Source: Parabacteroides sp. (lineage in GTDB: Bacteria; Bacteroidota; Bacteroidia; Bacteroidales; Tannerellaceae). From it: DNA of 64,000 bases. The notes under the pieces were generated by a model. That model made no database searches. It was given only the letters and a program-made list of their open reading frames with translations, and was not told the origin of the DNA. The stretch spans positions 1 through 64,000 of the forward strand of contig JALFJR010000002.1 of assembly GCA_022775005.1 (NCBI GenBank), given 5' to 3'. Below, one piece after another: positions 43,541 to 52,610 of the stretch. Position 1 is the first letter of the stretch, and every line of letters starts with the position of its first letter. The position numbers and the translations under genes were made by a program.

Positions 43541-46138
43541 TTATCGTTCAATGGTATAGCTACCAGCCTTGTATTCCGTGGCGGTTGTCTCGCCCGGCAA
43601 GGTGACAGCGGCAGTGGCTCCTTCCGGAATGGTGAAGTTCCAGATCCACTTGTCGCCCTCATACTTCCAAGAGCTCTTGATCAAACCAGCCGCAGATTGG
43701 TATTCCGCATTGACGAAACCTAAACGTTTGTCGGGTATAGGCTTCATGATGATGTGCTTGAAGCCGGGTTGCGCCACGTCGGCAGCGATGCCGGCCGCTG
43801 TCTCCCAGATCCATTCGCACACGCAGCCATAAGCGTAATGGTTGAAACTGTTCATGCCACGAGGACCCATACCCTTGTCGAGCATGTAGCTGTTCCAACG
43901 CTCCCAAATGGTGGTCGCCCCATTATCGACGGAGTAGAGCCAGCTCGGGTTCTTGCGCTGGAAAAGCAACTCATAGGCAATATCGACCATTCCATTCTCG
44001 GTGAGGGTAGGCATCAAGATGGAGGTACCCAAGAAGCCGGTTTGCAAGCAGTTGCCGTGGTCGGCAAAGTTCTGACGCAAGCGAGCGATCATGTTCGCTT
44101 TGGCTTGACCCTCCACCAACTCGTTCTTGAGGGCGAAGAGGGCCGGTGTCTGCATGGTGTTGAGGATCTCTGTCTTGAAGGATCCGTCGGCCTGGAGGAA
44201 GTTATCACGCAGGTATTGTTGTGCCTCCTTGACCATCGCCTCATACTTGGCCGCATCCCGACCAGTTGCCTTCGCCATGTCGCACATCAGGTTAGCATCA
44301 ATCGCCCAATAGCTGGCACTGAGGTAATTCCAGTAAACGTAGGTCTCCGGACGAAGCACATTCTTGCCGTTGGCATCTTTCATGTGGATGCCGCCTCCAC
44401 AACTCTCCAACGGCTCGTAGCTCAACCAGTCTGCCCATTGGTAATTGCCATTCTCGGCACTCAGTGTTTTGTGATCATATTTGGTCTCGTTGATGTGGTT
44501 GACAAACTTCTCCATAGAGGCCCAGTGCTCATTCACGATCTCGGTGTCGCCAAACTGTTTCCACACCACCCAAGGCACGATCACACCGGCATCAGCCCAA
44601 CCTAAACGCATCATGGAGGTAGGCTCCGCACCATACTGTGCCTGAGGCGCTACACCGGGGTATCCACCTAATTCGGTTTGCGTGTCACGCATGTCGCGCA
44701 ACCATTTGTGGAAGAACTTACGGGTGTTGGCGAAGAAGGTACCAGTCTCTGTGAACACCTGCGTATCAGCCGTCCAGCCCAAGCGCTCATTGCGTTGCGG
44801 ACAGTCCGTAGGCACGGAGAGATAGTTGGAACGTTGTCCCCAAAGGGTATTCTCGATGAGCTGGTTGATAGAGGGATCGCCGGTCGTGATCGTACCGATC
44901 TCTGTGTCTTGCGCGATAGAGGTGACGGGAATGGATTGAAGTGACTTGATACGTACCTCATCCGTCGCCGTGATGGAGACGAAGCGGTAGCCATAGAAGG
45001 TGCATGCCGGATGATAAGCGACATAGTCTTTGCTGTCCGCAAAGGTGTAGTGGAGCAGCATACCGATCTCCGGGGTACGCAGGTTCAGGCGGTGGCAACT
45101 GCCCTCTGGCCCATCCATGCCACGTTCCTTAGCTCCGTTGCCATCGTTGAGCAACTCGGCAGGCAGGCAGGTCAGCTTCGTGCCGCCCTTTGCGTTAAAG
45201 AGGAATGAGGGCACAGCCGCACAATTCTGACCGAAATCGACTACCAAGGTCTCGCCCGGCTTTACGATCATCTCCTCGCCCGGGGTATATTCTTTCGTGA
45301 TAACTACTTTACCGTATGCCTCTTCGCTCTCGCCGGTCACCCCTTTCCAAGTGTAGGCTTTTTGCGGTTGGAGCGCCAAATCGTTACGCAAATAGATCTC
45401 CGCACCATCCGAGGGTAGAATCTCACCCTTAAATTCGGTATTGACTTCCGGTGTAGAGAGGGCTTGCACATTGGCGAAACCCATCGGCTCGCGTGCGTCA
45501 TACTCCTCACCATCAAAAATAGCCGCATGTTTCACGGGGCCTGCGATGCCGGCTTTCCAGTCGGCTGTATTCGTACCATAATATTGCTTGCTGCCATCTT
45601 CGAAGGTCAGCTCTACTACACCGCGGAAAGCCACCTTCTTGCCAATCATACCCACATGGCCACTCGGTGTGATGATCTTGTCGGCCCACCAGCCCGGAGT
45701 GACCTGTACGGCCAAGGTGTTCTCGGCATCGGCAGCCGTGGCCAATGCGTCGGTAATATCGTAAGTGAAGGAGCGTTTGGTCTTCTCGTAATGGGTGAAT
45801 CCCGGTTTCAAGATCTCCTCGCCAATCGGCTGGCCGTTCACGTAAAGCGCATAGACACCCAAACCGGTCGTCATCCAGTGGGCCGCCTTTACCTTCTTCT
45901 CATTTTTAAGTGTGGATACGAACCAGCTTGCGCCATCGGCAGCTCGCTCATGAACACCCCACACCGTATCTGTCATGACAGGAGCGTTGGCAGCGGAGAT
46001 CCATTCCGAGGCGTCCCAAGCCGCATGGTCTAATGCCTCCATGCGCGTCACTCCCTTTTCGGACTTTGGCGTGTTACAACTCACTACCGACAGGAGTGCA
46101 ATGCCGGTAGCCAAAACCATCACAAGATTCTTTCTCAT
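43541..46138 (-). CDS. Alpha-L-rhamnosidase (GH78 family)
   Basis: Signal/lipobox LLSVVSCNTP; VPTDCPQRNERLGWTADTQVFTETG, WADAGVIVPW; start set at MRKNLVM. Confidence 0.92.
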   Translation of the reverse strand: MRKNLVMVLATGIALLSVVSCNTPKSEKGVTRMEALDHAAWDASEWISAANAPVMTDTVWGVHERAADGASWFVSTLKNEKKVKAAHWMTTGLGVYALYVNGQPIGEEILKPGFTHYEKTKRSFTYDITDALATAADAENTLAVQVTPGWWADKIITPSGHVGMIGKKVAFRGVVELTFEDGSKQYYGTNTADWKAGIAGPVKHAAIFDGEEYDAREPMGFANVQALSTPEVNTEFKGEILPSDGAEIYLRNDLALQPQKAYTWKGVTGESEEAYGKVVITKEYTPGEEMIVKPGETLVVDFGQNCAAVPSFLFNAKGGTKLTCLPAELLNDGNGAKERGMDGPEGSCHRLNLRTPEIGMLLHYTFADSKDYVAYHPACTFYGYRFVSITATDEVRIKSLQSIPVTSIAQDTEIGTITTGDPSINQLIENTLWGQRSNYLSVPTDCPQRNERLGWTADTQVFTETGTFFANTRKFFHKWLRDMRDTQTELGGYPGVAPQAQYGAEPTSMMRLGWADAGVIVPWVVWKQFGDTEIVNEHWASMEKFVNHINETKYDHKTLSAENGNYQWADWLSYEPLESCGGGIHMKDANGKNVLRPETYVYWNYLSASYWAIDANLMCDMAKATGRDAAKYEAMVKEAQQYLRDNFLQADGSFKTEILNTMQTPALFALKNELVEGQAKANMIARLRQNFADHGNCLQTGFLGTSILMPTLTENGMVDIAYELLFQRKNPSWLYSVDNGATTIWERWNSYMLDKGMGPRGMNSFNHYAYGCVCEWIWETAAGIAADVAQPGFKHIIMKPIPDKRLGFVNAEYQSAAGLIKSSWKYEGDKWIWNFTIPEGATAAVTLPGETTATEYKAGSYTIER

Positions 46139-46164
46139 TTTTAGTAAGTTTTTAAATAGTCGGG

Positions 46165-46172
46165 CAAATATA
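46165..46172 (-). promoter_or_regulatory. -7 box TATATTTG upstream of GH78
   Basis: TAnnTTTG on minus strand about 27 nt upstream of the 46138 start. Confidence 0.6.
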
Positions 46173-46619
46173 CAAAAAAGACCTCTCTTCACAGGGAGAT
46201 CTTTTTGTCTTTTTTTGATAATCTTATATGCTTACATAAAAATTAGCGATCGGTTCTGGCTTTTTATTTAATTGCGATATACTAATAGTGTCACGACATT
46301 TGCAACTTGTCTGAATTTGACATCGCGAAGATAGCCTGCCTCCGACCGCACCACAATACCTAAATATGGGTAATTTGCTGAGTCTATTACCTTGATTAGG
46401 GGATAGCATATAGGCCTAATGCCCCCAATCAACCCGTTTGACTGAACTTTCGCCGAACATATAAAACACCTAAATAACAACCTGTCAAACAAGCAGAAAA
46501 CTCACTTTCTCATCATTACCCATTTTTATCCATCTGTAAGCCGTAACAATAGATAAACAATGGCATAAAAAAGGAAAGGATATGCGATAAAAAAGGAGGG
46601 GATACACCTTGATTTCTTT

Positions 46620-46703
46620 GTTCGCCTCAGCCGAACGTGCGTTCAGCACAGTGGAACGGCCGTTCAGCAGTGCCGAATGTCCGTTCCACACTGCCGAACG
46701 AAG
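46620..46703 (+). repeat. 4 x 21-bp phased dyad array, copy 2
   Basis: GTTCGCCTCAGCCGAACGTGC / GTTCAGCACAGTGGAACGGCC / GTTCAGCAGTGCCGAATGTCC / GTTCCACACTGCCGAACGAAG. Confidence 0.88.
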
Positions 46704-46775
46704 ATTCTAATCCGTATCTCTTTCTTTTTCCTGCCTACTTCTCTCTATTTTGTAGCCTACTCCTCTTCATTTTCC

Positions 46776-49685
46776 TTACGACAGCAAAGAGAAAAGATCT
46801 CCAGTCAATGCAGCAAGAGAGACTCGGCAACGGGCGCATATATCGGTGATCGTAGCGGCTGCGTTTGCCAAGCGATAGAAGGTCTCTTCATCGAGCAACA
46901 CATATTCCCATTCTCGTTCCATCCGTTTCTCCGCAGGGAGTTCGTTAATCTTGCGACACCATTCCACTGCAGCCGTCTGCTTCTGGCGCACATTTCGGTC
47001 GTTGATCTTATCATTTCCCTTCGTCTCGACGAGGTAGATCTTTTCCTTCGTGCCCACCAAGAAATCCGGATGATAGGTAGCCATCAAGCCATCTTGCCGC
47101 AAATAGTAGATCACAGCAAACGCATGGAGAGACTCATGGATCTTCAAGAAACGCTCCACTTCGGCATCCCGATCCAAGAATTCCATGAATGCTTTCTCAA
47201 ACCCACCGTTATGCGAGGGATAACCCAATCGCTCATAAATAGATTTGTGCACTTCAAGCGAATAGCTCTCTCGCATCTTCATTGTCGCCACCTCCGAGAA
47301 TCGCCGATAATCCACCTGTGCCTCCGCTGTCTGCACATGCGTTTGCATCTGATAGATCGCACGGGCCATCTCGCCGATAAGGTGTTGCGTCACCAATCCA
47401 TTTTGCGCCAACAGAATCTTCCAGTCATACCGCTTAAAGGGATCGAAAGGCTGGCCAAACAGACGGGTACGGATAAAGCGATCGAGGGTGGCCATGATCT
47501 GTGCGTCATTGATCTGCAAGGTGGGCAGGCGAAGCTGCTTATGTGCCGAGACACGATCGAAACGCAAGAGTATGGTACGCAGAATCTTTTGCAAATATTC
47601 CCGATAGGTGCGTGCGTTGAACAGATCACCCGTCACGACATAGCGGCCAAACTGCGTCTTCGTGGAAACCTCTTGCGAGAGAAAGGTCTCGCCCTCCTGT
47701 ACCAAGAATTGGCGCAGGCGTTCCAAGCTATAATCGGTGAAGGGGTGCAACTTTTGGATGTCAATTTCATAATCATCCAACTCCTCTTCAGCCTCTCGCA
47801 GGATAATGGGCCACTCAAAATCGTAGGTGGCGTAATCGGCACGCAATCCCACTTTGATCAGATCACCTACGGAAGCTAAATCTGCATTATCTCCCTCCTC
47901 TATCGCTCCGGCTCCTTGCGCAAACAGCTCGTCATAAAACTGCAAGAAAGCAGGATGCTCAATGATGGAAAGCATATCCAAATAACTCTTCGGTGCTTGG
48001 CGTAGCTGCAACACACGTCGGCGATCCTCATTCTTGATCTCCTGATAATCCGACTCTCTCCACATCAAGCGCAAACCTCGGCCAATGATTTGCTCCAACA
48101 GAATCGGAGCTTCGGAAGAACGCAAAGGCACAATGACACAGATATTGTTCACATCAAAGCCCTCACGCAACATCAAGACAGAGACGATCACCCGAGGACG
48201 CTGATAACGGTCGATGTCGAACAGTTTTGTCTTGGTTTCCTTCCATTCCTCTTCCGACACCTCACCCTTAGCATTGCTGTCGATCAACACAATATCCTCC
48301 TGCCGCAACCCTTCGTCTAACAGGAATTGCTCCACAAAGGGAGAGACGGAGGTATCCTCGCAGATGACTAACATCTTCGGATTCTTCCTCACATCTAACG
48401 CTGTAAACTCCTTTTCCAGTTTTTTCAGTTTCGCCCATCCAGCACGCAACATCAAACGTTGCCCCTCACTCAATCCGCAAGCTTTTCCCCGATAATCTCG
48501 CTCAGCCTTGAAATCCAATTGTTCCAAGTCGGTTAGTTCTTGCCTACGATCCAACAACAGGGTTTTCACAAATCCTTTGCGCATAGCGGTGGCCAGATCG
48601 AAATCTACTACAATATGGGGGAAAAAGCACTTTGCCGCATTCCTTCCAGAACCCTGTTTATCATAGGGCGTAGCCGAAAAGTCCACCTGCACAAAGCGAC
48701 TGCCTTTCCCGCCCGCTATGGCATTCAGACCCTTTTGCCACTCCACCTCTTCCACTTCACCTCCACGTTTCAACTCATGGATATGGTGTGCCTCATCGTT
48801 GATCACCATCAGATCGGGTAAACCAGCCAAATAGTCTAACTCACTGCCTCGCAGGTAACGACGATCCAACATGCCCAAATCGTTTCCTGCTGCCTTGCCC
48901 GGACGTATCGGCAGCAATTGCTCCACAATCTCTGGTGCGGTGAGCGATTGTAACTCGTCGTTTTCTTCCTCCTCAATCGGCAGTTGATTCTCAAAAAGAT
49001 GCCAGTTCGTAAGGGCAATCAAGCCATCACCCGTCGTCTTGCGCCCAATGCCCTCCTCCTTCGTGACCACATTGTTTTGGATAAAAGAGAACACCTCTTG
49101 CCGTAAGTGAGGCGGAATAAAAAGCGCTTGGTTCAGGTGAAAGTCGTTTGTCTCCGGATCGCGATAGCGCTGTCCCCGAGGCATCCGTCCGCAAAAGGCA
49201 TCTAACAGGCGGTCGTAAACAATCAACCCCGGTGCCACGATCAAGAAGTTCTGCGTGAACCGTCCACTCGGTTGCTCCTCATGACGGGCATTCAGCAACT
49301 GCCAAAGCAACAGGGCGTGCATCACCCACGTCTTGCCCGTACCAGTCGCCATCTTCACGGCATATTTGGGCATCTGATATTTGGGTCGAGCCAACGCGCC
49401 TAAGTTTGCGTATGCCAAGAGGCTCTCGTCCACACAGCGGTAGTTGTCGATCACCTGCTCCACCCGTGCCACCTCATGCAGGTAAATCACGTTGAGAATC
49501 GCTTGCCGTTGCCCTTCATGAAAGTTCCGATCACGTTCCATCCTGTGCGCCTCACCAAACCAATAGCGCAACAAGGTTTGTGTCATGGGAGTAACCGCTT
49601 CTAAAAGTGAGCCATCCGCCCATGCCTGATTGACCTGCTCCGTCAATCGTTTGGCCAATTCCAAAGAGATCGTATTCGCATTCAT
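46776..49685 (-). CDS. Type III-like restriction enzyme Res subunit (DEAD/DEAH helicase-nuclease)
   Basis: Walker [29 protein letters not shown]-terminal [19 protein letters not shown] nuclease motif. Confidence 0.9.
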
Positions 49686-51616
49686 CGTGTTGTCGCATTT
49701 AAAACCACTTGACTTTCAAAACCAAACACATCCACTGCTTTCACGCATACCGTGCGTTGCTCCTTGTGGGGCACACGCAAGCGCGTCGAATAGATGCAAT
49801 GCAAGGGATCATCATCGTTATCAGTGTTCTCCCGATAATCCTGCCAAGTTGATCGGAAGGTGACACCATCATAATCAGGATCAATGCTCCAATACTCAAT
49901 CAATGAGAGGGGATCCTCCTCCATCACCTCGCACAGCTTCTCCTTGTCTTTATCATCGAGCGGAATATTATCTGGCGAGAGCAACACATAGTCTTTCAAG
50001 GCGATGTCTAACTCATCTTGATCGCCTTGGCGGTACACATTTACCAATGCCGCGCTTAAGTATTGTAGGGAGGAGAAGCGAACCGACCGATCGTCAATCA
50101 ATTTCTTGTATCCCTTCTTCGACAGTTTATCCAATAGGTCGGGTGGAATGACCAAGACAACCACATTGGCATTTTGGTATTGTTGGATAGCTTGCGAGAT
50201 GTCGAACGCAAAGTTCCATCCCAAGACAACCACTTTATCCCAACCACCGCCTAACAGGGAGGCCTTGGCTTCTACGGCCCGTTTGATCGTAGCCGCCGTG
50301 GTCAATCGGTTGGGGCTATCCACCATCACCAACGTGCGTGTTCCCTTCACATAGCCAAAGTTTCGATCGTTGCATTGCTCTGGGGCGAAGGGTAAAGCCC
50401 CATAAAGGCCCAACACCACTTGGCTCAGATCGCCCACTCGCTGATAACGCTTGTTGTTGCGGAAAGCCTCCTTTTGATAGTCGCCAATGGATTGATAGAG
50501 GAAAGGGTTCACCTCTTGGTCGATAAAGCGTTTGCGCATCACCAAGGAGGCCGGTTTCCCTATATCCCCAATGATCCAACGTCTGCCTAACCGCTCTGCC
50601 ACAGCCGCTGTGGTACCGCTACCTCCGAAGAAATCACATACCAAATCGCCCTCGTTACTACTTGCCTTTATAATGCGTTCAAGAAGGGCTTCTGGTTTTT
50701 GGGTAGCGTAACCTATACGTTCATGTCCTGTTTTACCCACTTGATACAAATCATCCCAGCAATCTGTATCATCCCAAAAGTCTGATACAGGCTTATCTTC
50801 TTGTTGCCGATACACGACATTCCCATTCTCATCTCGCATGGAAACTTTTATTCCATCTATCATTTGGACAAGATTTCTTTTTCTGCTTTCAGATAGTTTA
50901 ATCCTTTGTTCATGGAATATAGAATTTGAGGATCTCCCATAGTAAAAAATATTGTCATGCATTCTTTGAAAGGCGCTTGACACATTTGCCCAACGACTGT
51001 AAGCCCATATAATTTCATTTTTGAAATTATCTTTCCCAAATATCTCATCCATCAATATTTTCACATAGTGCCCGACATGCCAATCAATATGCACATAAAT
51101 ACTTCCTCGATCGGATAATAGCTCACGCATCAGTACCAAACGAGGATACATCATGCGGAGATAAGACACCGTGCCCTCCTCCCAAGTGTCCGCATAGGCG
51201 AATTGCTCAATCACGGTGGGCTTTTGCTGAATATCCGCCCCTGGCAAAGTAATCTTTGTGCGATAATCCGCTTTGCTATCGAAAGGGGGATCAATATAAA
51301 TCAGATCCACTTTGCCACGCATAGAGGGTAAACCGGTAGCTGGGTCGCCTGCCAATAGTGCCTGCATCGTCAGCAGGTTATCGCCATAGATCAACCGATT
51401 CATCCAACCCTCTCCATGCAGGGCTTGGTTAAACGCATTGGGAATTTGGGGCGAACTGCCTCGAAACAGCCCACTGGTGTCTTTACTGGGCAACACCAAT
51501 TCATTGGTTTGCAAACCAATCTGCGTGCCATTGCTTAGGCGCTCCAAGATTTGTTGCGCCTCTTTTCTGCCTTCGCTTGCGATGCGAGGCAATGCTTCAA
51601 TCAGGGATTTTGCCAT
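49682..51616 (-). CDS. Site-specific DNA methyltransferase (Mod), beta-class motif order
   Basis: [19 protein letters not shown] then [24 protein letters not shown]; overlaps Res by 4 nt. Confidence 0.92.
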
Positions 51617-51667
51617 AACTGCATTAACCGTGTTTTCATCCGTATTAATGCGTCGCTTTTCTTACGA

Positions 51668-51820
51668 GTTTCCGCCAAGCACCTAAAAAGAACGTGGACG
51701 TTGTTACATCCGGTTCGAAGGTACTTGGCGGAAACCTATGCTCAACAGATGCAGCCAGCCGTCCACGCATAACGTGAACGTCCGCTATTATCCATTGAGC
51801 ATGTTCTTTCCACCGCCAAG
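51668..51820. repeat. Interlocking inverted repeats upstream of mod
   Basis: GTTTCCGCCAAGCACCT/AGGTACTTGGCGGAAAC, CGTGGACG/CGTCCACG, ATGCTCAA/TTGAGCAT, extra CCGCCAAG. Confidence 0.75.
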
Positions 51821-52035
51821 TTTCTCGAACCTCGAATAATCAGCAAACGCTAATATTTACCACAAAAAGACCTAACCACAGCTACGCTTAGCGGGATCAG
51901 TCGGCCACAAAAGTACGAATTAATTCAATTTTCAGCAATCTCTCTTTTGGGATCCATTCAACGTTTTCAAGGAAAGACACCCTGGCGGATGGCTTACCTT
52001 CGTAACAGGAAATGAGAGGGCAGGGAAAGCGCAAG

Positions 52036-52156
52036 GCTAAGGTAACGCTAAAGTGACGCTAAAGTAACACTAAGGTAAGTCTAATCCGGCTCTAATCCGG
52101 AATTAGAGAATGATTAGAGGATGATTAGACAACGATTAGAGGATGATTAGAGCTAC
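52036..52156. repeat. 11 x 11-bp tandem array with internal strand inversion
   Basis: Eleven consecutive 11-nt units from GCTAAGGTAAC to ATTAGAGCTAC; CTAA-type units then ATTAG-type units. Confidence 0.85.
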
Positions 52157-52302
52157 CGTAGCGCAGCCTTAGCCAAGCGGCCTATCAGATGGTATTATAG
52201 AGACGTAGCACGCTATGTCTCTACTTATTGATATACTTGCTTACTGCCACCACAACCTTGCAGTTTTAGCTAAAATCATAGGGAAAACCAACGGTGTATA
52301 TA

Positions 52303-52337
52303 TAAAAAAAGAGAGTCACTCATTTGAGTAACGCTCT
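52303..52337 (-). terminator. Rho-independent terminator of the tRNA-Phe transcript
   Basis: Minus strand AGAGCGTTACTCA-aa-TGAGTGACTCTC followed by TTTTTTT. Confidence 0.8.
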
Positions 52338-52348
52338 GATTTTCTATG

Positions 52349-52463
52349 TGGTGCCACCAAGAATCGAACCGAGGACACAAGGATTTTCAGTCCTTTGACT
52401 CTAAAGACTTCCAAAAGCTCGCTATCGCTCACTTTTGGAAGCAACCAACTGAGCTATGGCACC
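52349..52463 (-). tRNA. tRNA-Phe(GAA) with a 40-nt hairpin insertion in the D-loop, possible pseudogene
   Basis: GGTGCCATAGCTCAGTTGGTT-[40 nt]-AGAGTCAAAGGACTGAAAATCCTTGTGTCCTCGGTTCGATTCTTGGTGGCACC; intact acceptor and anticodon arms. Confidence 0.8.
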
Positions 52464-52610
52464 TTATAAATCAATAGAGCTACATAAATTGCTCGTAATC
52501 TTTTATTCCACTGATTATTCCGTAACTATTCATAAGTTTTTGGAATAGTGTATTACTTAGTTTTCGATAAGCTTCTATGATAGATAGAATATTGACACTT
52601 TTCATAACGA

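Follow-up and report, generated by a model that had tools for sequence, protein, structure and literature searches.

A tRNA-Phe(GAA) copy with a D-loop hairpin in a Parabacteroides genome as the probable attR scar of a tRNA-targeting integrative element

Bacterial islands very commonly enter the chromosome by integrating into tRNA genes, and the attP sites involved are usually described as linear arrays of protein-binding sites. Among the Bacteroides systems, integrases of the CTnDOT/NBU type combine Arm-DNA-bind_5, SAM_5 and Phage_integrase domains, and paired arm-type direct repeats flank the core, as they do in the elements described here; we know of no tRNA half-site with a hairpin in CTnDOT or NBU1. 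In the Islander class of tRNA-targeting islands, the integrase gene adjoins the target tRNA gene, which is restored at one end of the island, while the displaced 3′ part of the gene lies at the other end (PMC4383910). The present elements share this layout, but the usual displaced copy in that class is a 3′ fragment only, whereas the attP considered here adds an imitation of the tRNA 5′ half and a conserved D-loop hairpin. The attC sites of integrons are also tyrosine-recombinase sites, with a folded single strand in which pairing is conserved and sequence is variable; there, however, the hairpin itself is the substrate, whereas the present hairpin lies about 20 bp outside an anticodon-loop core and is not where the exchange is placed, and the elements yielded no integron integrase. 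In the tRNA-dependent lysogeny of mycobacteriophages, the element likewise targets a host tRNA gene and brings along a tRNA of matching type, but there the host gene is broken and a separate functional phage tRNA takes its place (PMC10865867); in the hairpin elements the host gene is restored by the element, and the element's own copy has a hairpin and no promoter. The open-access literature searched describes islands integrated at tRNA genes, the tRNA fragments that they leave behind and phage tRNAs required for lysogeny, but no tRNA half-site with a conserved D-loop hairpin.

The locus studied here lies in a stretch of 64,000 nt from Parabacteroides sp. (contig JALFJR010000002.1, positions 1–64,000), hereafter the window. 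An earlier note, made from the sequence alone, had read one short feature of it as a tRNA-Phe(GAA) with a perfect hairpin inserted in the D-loop, and had named a decayed tRNA, a small mobile hairpin and an unusual expressed RNA as possible explanations. The features of the locus are as follows.

46492–52607, no strand: segment that is variable with respect to the closest relatives, G007 and G031, comprising the element remnant and a Type III restriction-modification pair (from synteny)
52273–52348, minus strand: chromosomal 3′ flank of the native tRNA-Phe with its intrinsic terminator
52349–52463, minus strand: tRNA-Phe(GAA)-like putative attR half-site (from comparison with two intact paralogues and with the attR layout elsewhere)
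52402–52349, minus strand: tRNA 3′ half of the putative attR
52390–52402, minus strand: AGAGTCAAAGGAC, the left side of the probable recombination core, which continues through the anticodon stem-loop (from attL/attR comparison)
52403–52443, minus strand: D-loop hairpin insert of 41 nt between T20 and A21 (from stem covariation in 16 copies)
52463–52444, minus strand: putatively element-derived tRNA 5′ half of the attR
52464–52607, minus strand: probable remnant of the element P arm (attP flank), which aligns with the P arms of G059 and G204

The minus-strand sequence from 52463 to 52349 matches the earlier description exactly, and the 10-bp perfect arms (52408–52417 and 52432–52441), the acceptor stem (complete, with 7 bp), the intact anticodon arm and the intrinsic terminator after the copy are all present as read before; the T arm is complete as well. 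The D-loop position of the insert also stands, but its size, given as 40 nt, has to be corrected to 41 nt, to which one additional T (AGAGTC against AGAGC) brings a total of 42 nt. The insert folds into a stem, GCTTCCAAAAG/CTTTTGGAAGT, followed by a UGA/GAG internal motif, GC/GC and a C(GATA)G loop, and the predicted RNA fold has a z-score of −4.9 against 200 shuffles. Whether the genome holds another intact tRNA-Phe had been raised earlier, and two such genes are found (C21:18627–18699 and C87:13827–13899), so that the window copy need not work; it differs from both by the insert, the extra T and two C-to-T changes in the T-stem. The C–U mismatch and two wobbles described in this stem are indeed there, but the mismatch is native to both paralogues (CCCGG/CCTGG) and is not a sign of decay, since these intact and presumably working genes share it, and only the two wobbles are specific to the window copy. 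No tRNA was called in the window by ARAGORN; with the Rfam tRNA model, the copy stays below the gathering cut-off.

At least 15 other Bacteroidales genomes have a tRNA 5′ half interrupted by a hairpin at this D-loop position, at tRNA-Phe, tRNA-Lys, tRNA-Thr and tRNA-Met. Within the genus, three of 38 other genomes have hairpin tRNA-Phe copies with a different hairpin sequence at the same place; in the loci read in a genus-wide BLAST survey, every displaced copy was of this kind, and no hairpin copies were seen to result from a second class of integrases located at tRNA-Phe in these genomes. When 394 Bacteroidales genomes were searched with a pattern, further copies came to light, and the reversed control pattern matched nothing. 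Scanning a collection of 85,462 species gave at least 119 stretches; most are chance matches, and a T arm in tRNA context was required for a stretch to be retained. Among the matches listed there are tRNA-Lys, tRNA-Met and more tRNA-Phe cases, in hosts that include Sanguibacteroides, Bacteroides mediterraneensis, B. caecigallinarum, Paramuribaculum and Muribaculaceae. The match in G162 was rejected as a chance occurrence inside other sequence, and a Parabacteroides plasmid match proved to have ordinary chromosomal genes around the tRNA. A phage origin of the tRNA copy gained no support either, the lone match to a 'phage' record (MT838005.1) being a bacterial chromosomal contig with an ordinary intact tRNA-Phe. 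The analysed set comprises 16 distinct hairpin copies, including that of the window.

These copies do not resemble working genes. The Bacteroidales promoter motif TAnnTTTG occurs within 100 nt of 50 of the 52 intact tRNA-Phe genes and of one of the 16 hairpin copies, the window copy being among those that lack it, and ARAGORN called none of the hairpin copies tested; the combination of a callable cloverleaf and a promoter, as in a functional tRNA gene, was not found among them. In many copies the 5′ strand of the acceptor stem has been poorly preserved, whereas TAGCTCAGYTGGTTG hardly varies; the search pattern accounts for part of this constancy, but the genus-wide BLAST survey mentioned above imposed no such sequence. 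The earlier suggestion of an unusual expressed RNA gains no support from a promoter motif, though such an RNA may nonetheless exist.

Five elements of 6–13 kb, each with a tyrosine integrase, were found with both ends, in the order intact tRNA, integrase, element, hairpin tRNA, the intact tRNA being attL and the hairpin copy attR. These elements, and one remnant, are as follows.

G038, tRNA-Phe, 8.7 kb: intact tRNA-Phe at L063:7177–7250, with the hairpin copy in the same direction
G059, 9.3 kb: integrase gene split
G001, tRNA-Thr, 6.4 kb
G105, tRNA-Lys, 12.7 kb
G268, tRNA-Lys, 13.0 kb
G204: remnant of 1.65 kb

In G014, a close relative with an empty site (L109), the flank upstream of the G038 attL is joined directly to the flank downstream of its attR, and it is from this empty site and the common layout that the hairpin copy is assigned as attR and its hairpin-bearing 5′ half as part of attP. 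All five complete relatives show a regenerated tRNA at one end and a displaced tRNA segment at the other, as expected of a genomic island; in the window, only the displaced end is present. Since attL and attR differ on both sides of the stretch equivalent to 52390–52402, the exchange is placed between the hairpin and the T arm, and we infer that it occurs in the anticodon loop. The integrase lies inside the element adjoining attL (G038, G001, G105, G268 and, split, G059), and its gene follows the tRNA at about 130 bp in the same direction; that of G038, downstream of the intact tRNA-Phe, has 399 aa and the three domains named above. Its relatives of 57–69% identity are found at tRNA-Thr, tRNA-Lys and tRNA-Phe, and a relative of 47% at tRNA-Pro. 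The hairpin is not indispensable, since it is missing from the tRNA copies of two relatives, G003 and G243, whose integrases are 69% and 61% identical.

One cargo protein that recurs is about 600 aa long and has a DECH motif; compared with the G038 copy, its relatives in three other elements show 76, 55 and 23% identity. The element proteins that were scanned include no relaxase, phage structural or PADLOC defence proteins, apart from weak HEPN-type matches of HepT. A nucleotidyltransferase and HepT-like toxin–antitoxin pair stands directly before the hairpin attR in G059 and G204 (L130, 17027–17958; L132, 19075–19708), and the G059 element has a further nucleotidyltransferase-like ORF. At three loci (L064, L133 and L065), a second, distantly related integrase starts about 300–500 bp downstream of the hairpin copy, so that hairpin elements stand there in tandem with another type of island at the same tRNA-Phe. 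At another locus (L167 in G170), two tRNA-Phe copies at 865 and 19561, 18.7 kb apart and with identical promoters, flank a related integrase, and this pair does not fit a simple attL/attR layout.

The window retains only part of such an arrangement. Positions 52273–52403 match the intact tRNA-Phe of G031 (L070) over its 3′ part and flank at 91.6% identity, and the left flank (43542–46491) and the right flank (from 52608) are syntenic with G007 and G031 at 90–97%, the synteny from 52608 onward being at 96–97%; these two genomes carry a different segment of about 5.5 kb between the syntenic flanks. An element still standing to the right of the hairpin, from 52463 onward, was ruled out by this synteny from 52608, which covers porin, imelysin and di-haem oxidoreductase genes. 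The window genome has no close relative of the integrase (E up to 1e-50), and no arm-type repeats of the kind TGTAAACC can be recognized in the window, those of the P-arm remnant having apparently decayed. Because the P-arm remnant aligns, the native 3′ flank is present, synteny resumes at 52608 and 46491 and a close integrase is missing, the window copy is, on these comparisons, an orphan attR, whose element would be gone, its P arm mutated and its arm sites decayed. That the feature is the attR scar of a tRNA-targeting integrative element is thus nearly certain. Within the variable segment, the restriction-modification pair (46776–51616, minus strand; Res 46776–49685, Mod 49682–51616) is missing at the corresponding place in the two closest relatives. 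Units of 11 bp form an array at 52009–52182, its first half (CTAAAGTAACG) and second half (ATTAGAGGATG) being inverted relative to each other; the array has a 95% copy at C21:171–344 and weaker copies elsewhere in the genome and in G007 and G031, and is by this distribution a dispersed repeat.

In the 16 copies, 93.2% of the cells of the outer 11 pairs are standard pairs, and 35 cells are changed on both sides. The covariation score is 0.561 compared with 0.226 in shuffles (none of 500 as high), and controls with slid partners are at most 54% paired; these covariation counts come from a manual alignment of the outer arms in related copies and do not represent independent events. All four Watson–Crick pairs are used at stem position 3, and close copies show compensating changes at single stem positions (GCTTC/GAAGC, GCATC/GATGC and GCGTC/GACGC). 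It is very likely, on this evidence, that the pairing is under selection. The loop is C(GNA)G or C(GNNA)G in 14 of the 16 copies, no tetraloop is of the GNRA type, and the internal UGA/GAG motif, present in many copies, could form tandem G–A pairs. Loops of the d(GNA) type and sheared GA pairs are known in DNA. The d(cGNNAg) sequence is a stable DNA tetraloop, according to Nakano (2002) as cited in PMC9969394. The stem wobbles favour the tRNA-sense strand (15 G–T against seven A–C), as does the RNA folding energy in 14 of the 16 copies, a bias no less compatible with RNA than with DNA.

The hairpin copy is preceded by two arm-type direct repeats, approximately TGTAAACC, at an interval of 12 bp; a second pair like them stands immediately ahead of the integrase start. 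Measured to the anticodon loop, the upstream repeats lie 118/106 bp away in three short-hairpin elements, G038 (Phe), G001 (Thr) and G268 (Lys), and 118/107 bp away in a fourth, L222 (Lys), although the spacer sequences differ; in most long-hairpin copies the figures are about 140/128 bp. Exceptions are L237, L243 and L227, of which L237 and L243 lie outside both spacing classes. The hairpin-free Thr element of G003 keeps 119/107 bp because its spacer is about 33 bp longer. The linear spacing between arm and core thus appears to be constrained with or without the hairpin, and its fixity could be due in part to common descent.

In the mechanism that we propose, the element would use tRNA-Phe as attB, and the window feature would be attR, carrying the element-side half of attP. 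The attP would imitate a whole tRNA, with a 5′ half in which the D-arm is kept and the acceptor strand is loosely kept, the hairpin after D-loop position 20, and then the tRNA 3′ half, the terminator and the integrase gene. The tyrosine integrase would recombine attP with the host tRNA somewhere in the anticodon arm, joining the host promoter and 5′ half to the element 3′ half to give a working tRNA (attL), and the hairpin-bearing element 5′ half to the displaced host 3′ half to give attR. The tRNA-sense strand may extrude the hairpin, either while the circle is supercoiled or while the DNA is single-stranded; in the linear form the arm–core distance would be right for the recombination complex, and extrusion would shorten it by 32–43 bp, so that folding out could switch the site between recombination-competent and recombination-incompetent states. 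We give this explanation as a whole, an attR of an integrative element with the hairpin as a DNA-level module of attP, a probability of about 0.6. The hairpin probably takes part in insertion or excision of the element, and the loop type and spacing somewhat favour a role in DNA recombination over one in RNA. A stronger proposal is less likely than not: in this family of Bacteroidales elements, which are not integrons, a tyrosine recombinase would need the hairpin, folded as DNA on one particular strand within the tRNA imitation between arm sites and core, as the conformational switch of its att site in integration and excision.

A role in RNA would fit the strand bias of the wobbles and folding energies, as well as the integrase gene lying close downstream in the same orientation. 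Transcripts from the last element genes would run through the hairpin tRNA into the integrase gene in the circle, where the hairpin would block tRNA folding and the cutting of the read-through transcript by RNase P/Z, the integrase mRNA being whole only in the circle; otherwise the hairpin RNA might be a small regulator. A promoter motif is, however, missing near 15 of the 16 copies, a terminator stands between the tRNA and the integrase, GNRA tetraloops do not occur and the conserved linear arm–core spacing is not predicted by an RNA role, and we regard this explanation as possible but rather unlikely. Excision factors often bind between the arm sites and the core in systems of the lambda/CTnDOT type, and the inverted repeat sits in just this place, so that it might be a double-stranded palindrome bound by a dimeric excisionase or regulator of the element. 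Yet a protein that reads the duplex would conserve bases and not pairing, whereas the stem changes are compensating, and the loop bases are conserved too; such a binding site is improbable.

The options left by the earlier note fare differently. With two intact tRNA-Phe genes in the genome, and two T-stem changes and an extra T in the window copy, an ordinary pseudogene with a chance or IS-related hairpin insertion might seem the obvious reading, and the genome could indeed do without this copy as a tRNA; a simple pseudogene is nevertheless hardly credible, as the same arrangement is the attR of elements elsewhere, and at least 15 other genomes have covarying stems of different sequence at the same D-loop position, at the far end of an integrated element wherever both ends were visible. 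The idea of a small mobile hairpin was right as to mobility, although the moving unit is probably the 6–13-kb element, with the hairpin as part of one end. A small palindrome hopping in the genome was ruled out by the absence of further exact copies there (the 115-mer of the window copy has no second copy in its own genome, and the exact 34-mer hairpin has none in the genome contig collection) and by the hairpins of different sequence and the same fold at the identical position in other genomes.

In conclusion, reading the window feature as an attR accounts for a peculiar locus that would otherwise pass for a pseudogene. The hairpin tRNA half-site may serve as a marker for finding elements and scars of this kind, which ARAGORN missed in every copy tested. 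A recurrent attP that combines an imitation of the tRNA 5′ half with a hairpin selected for its pairing would add a structural element to the present picture of attP.
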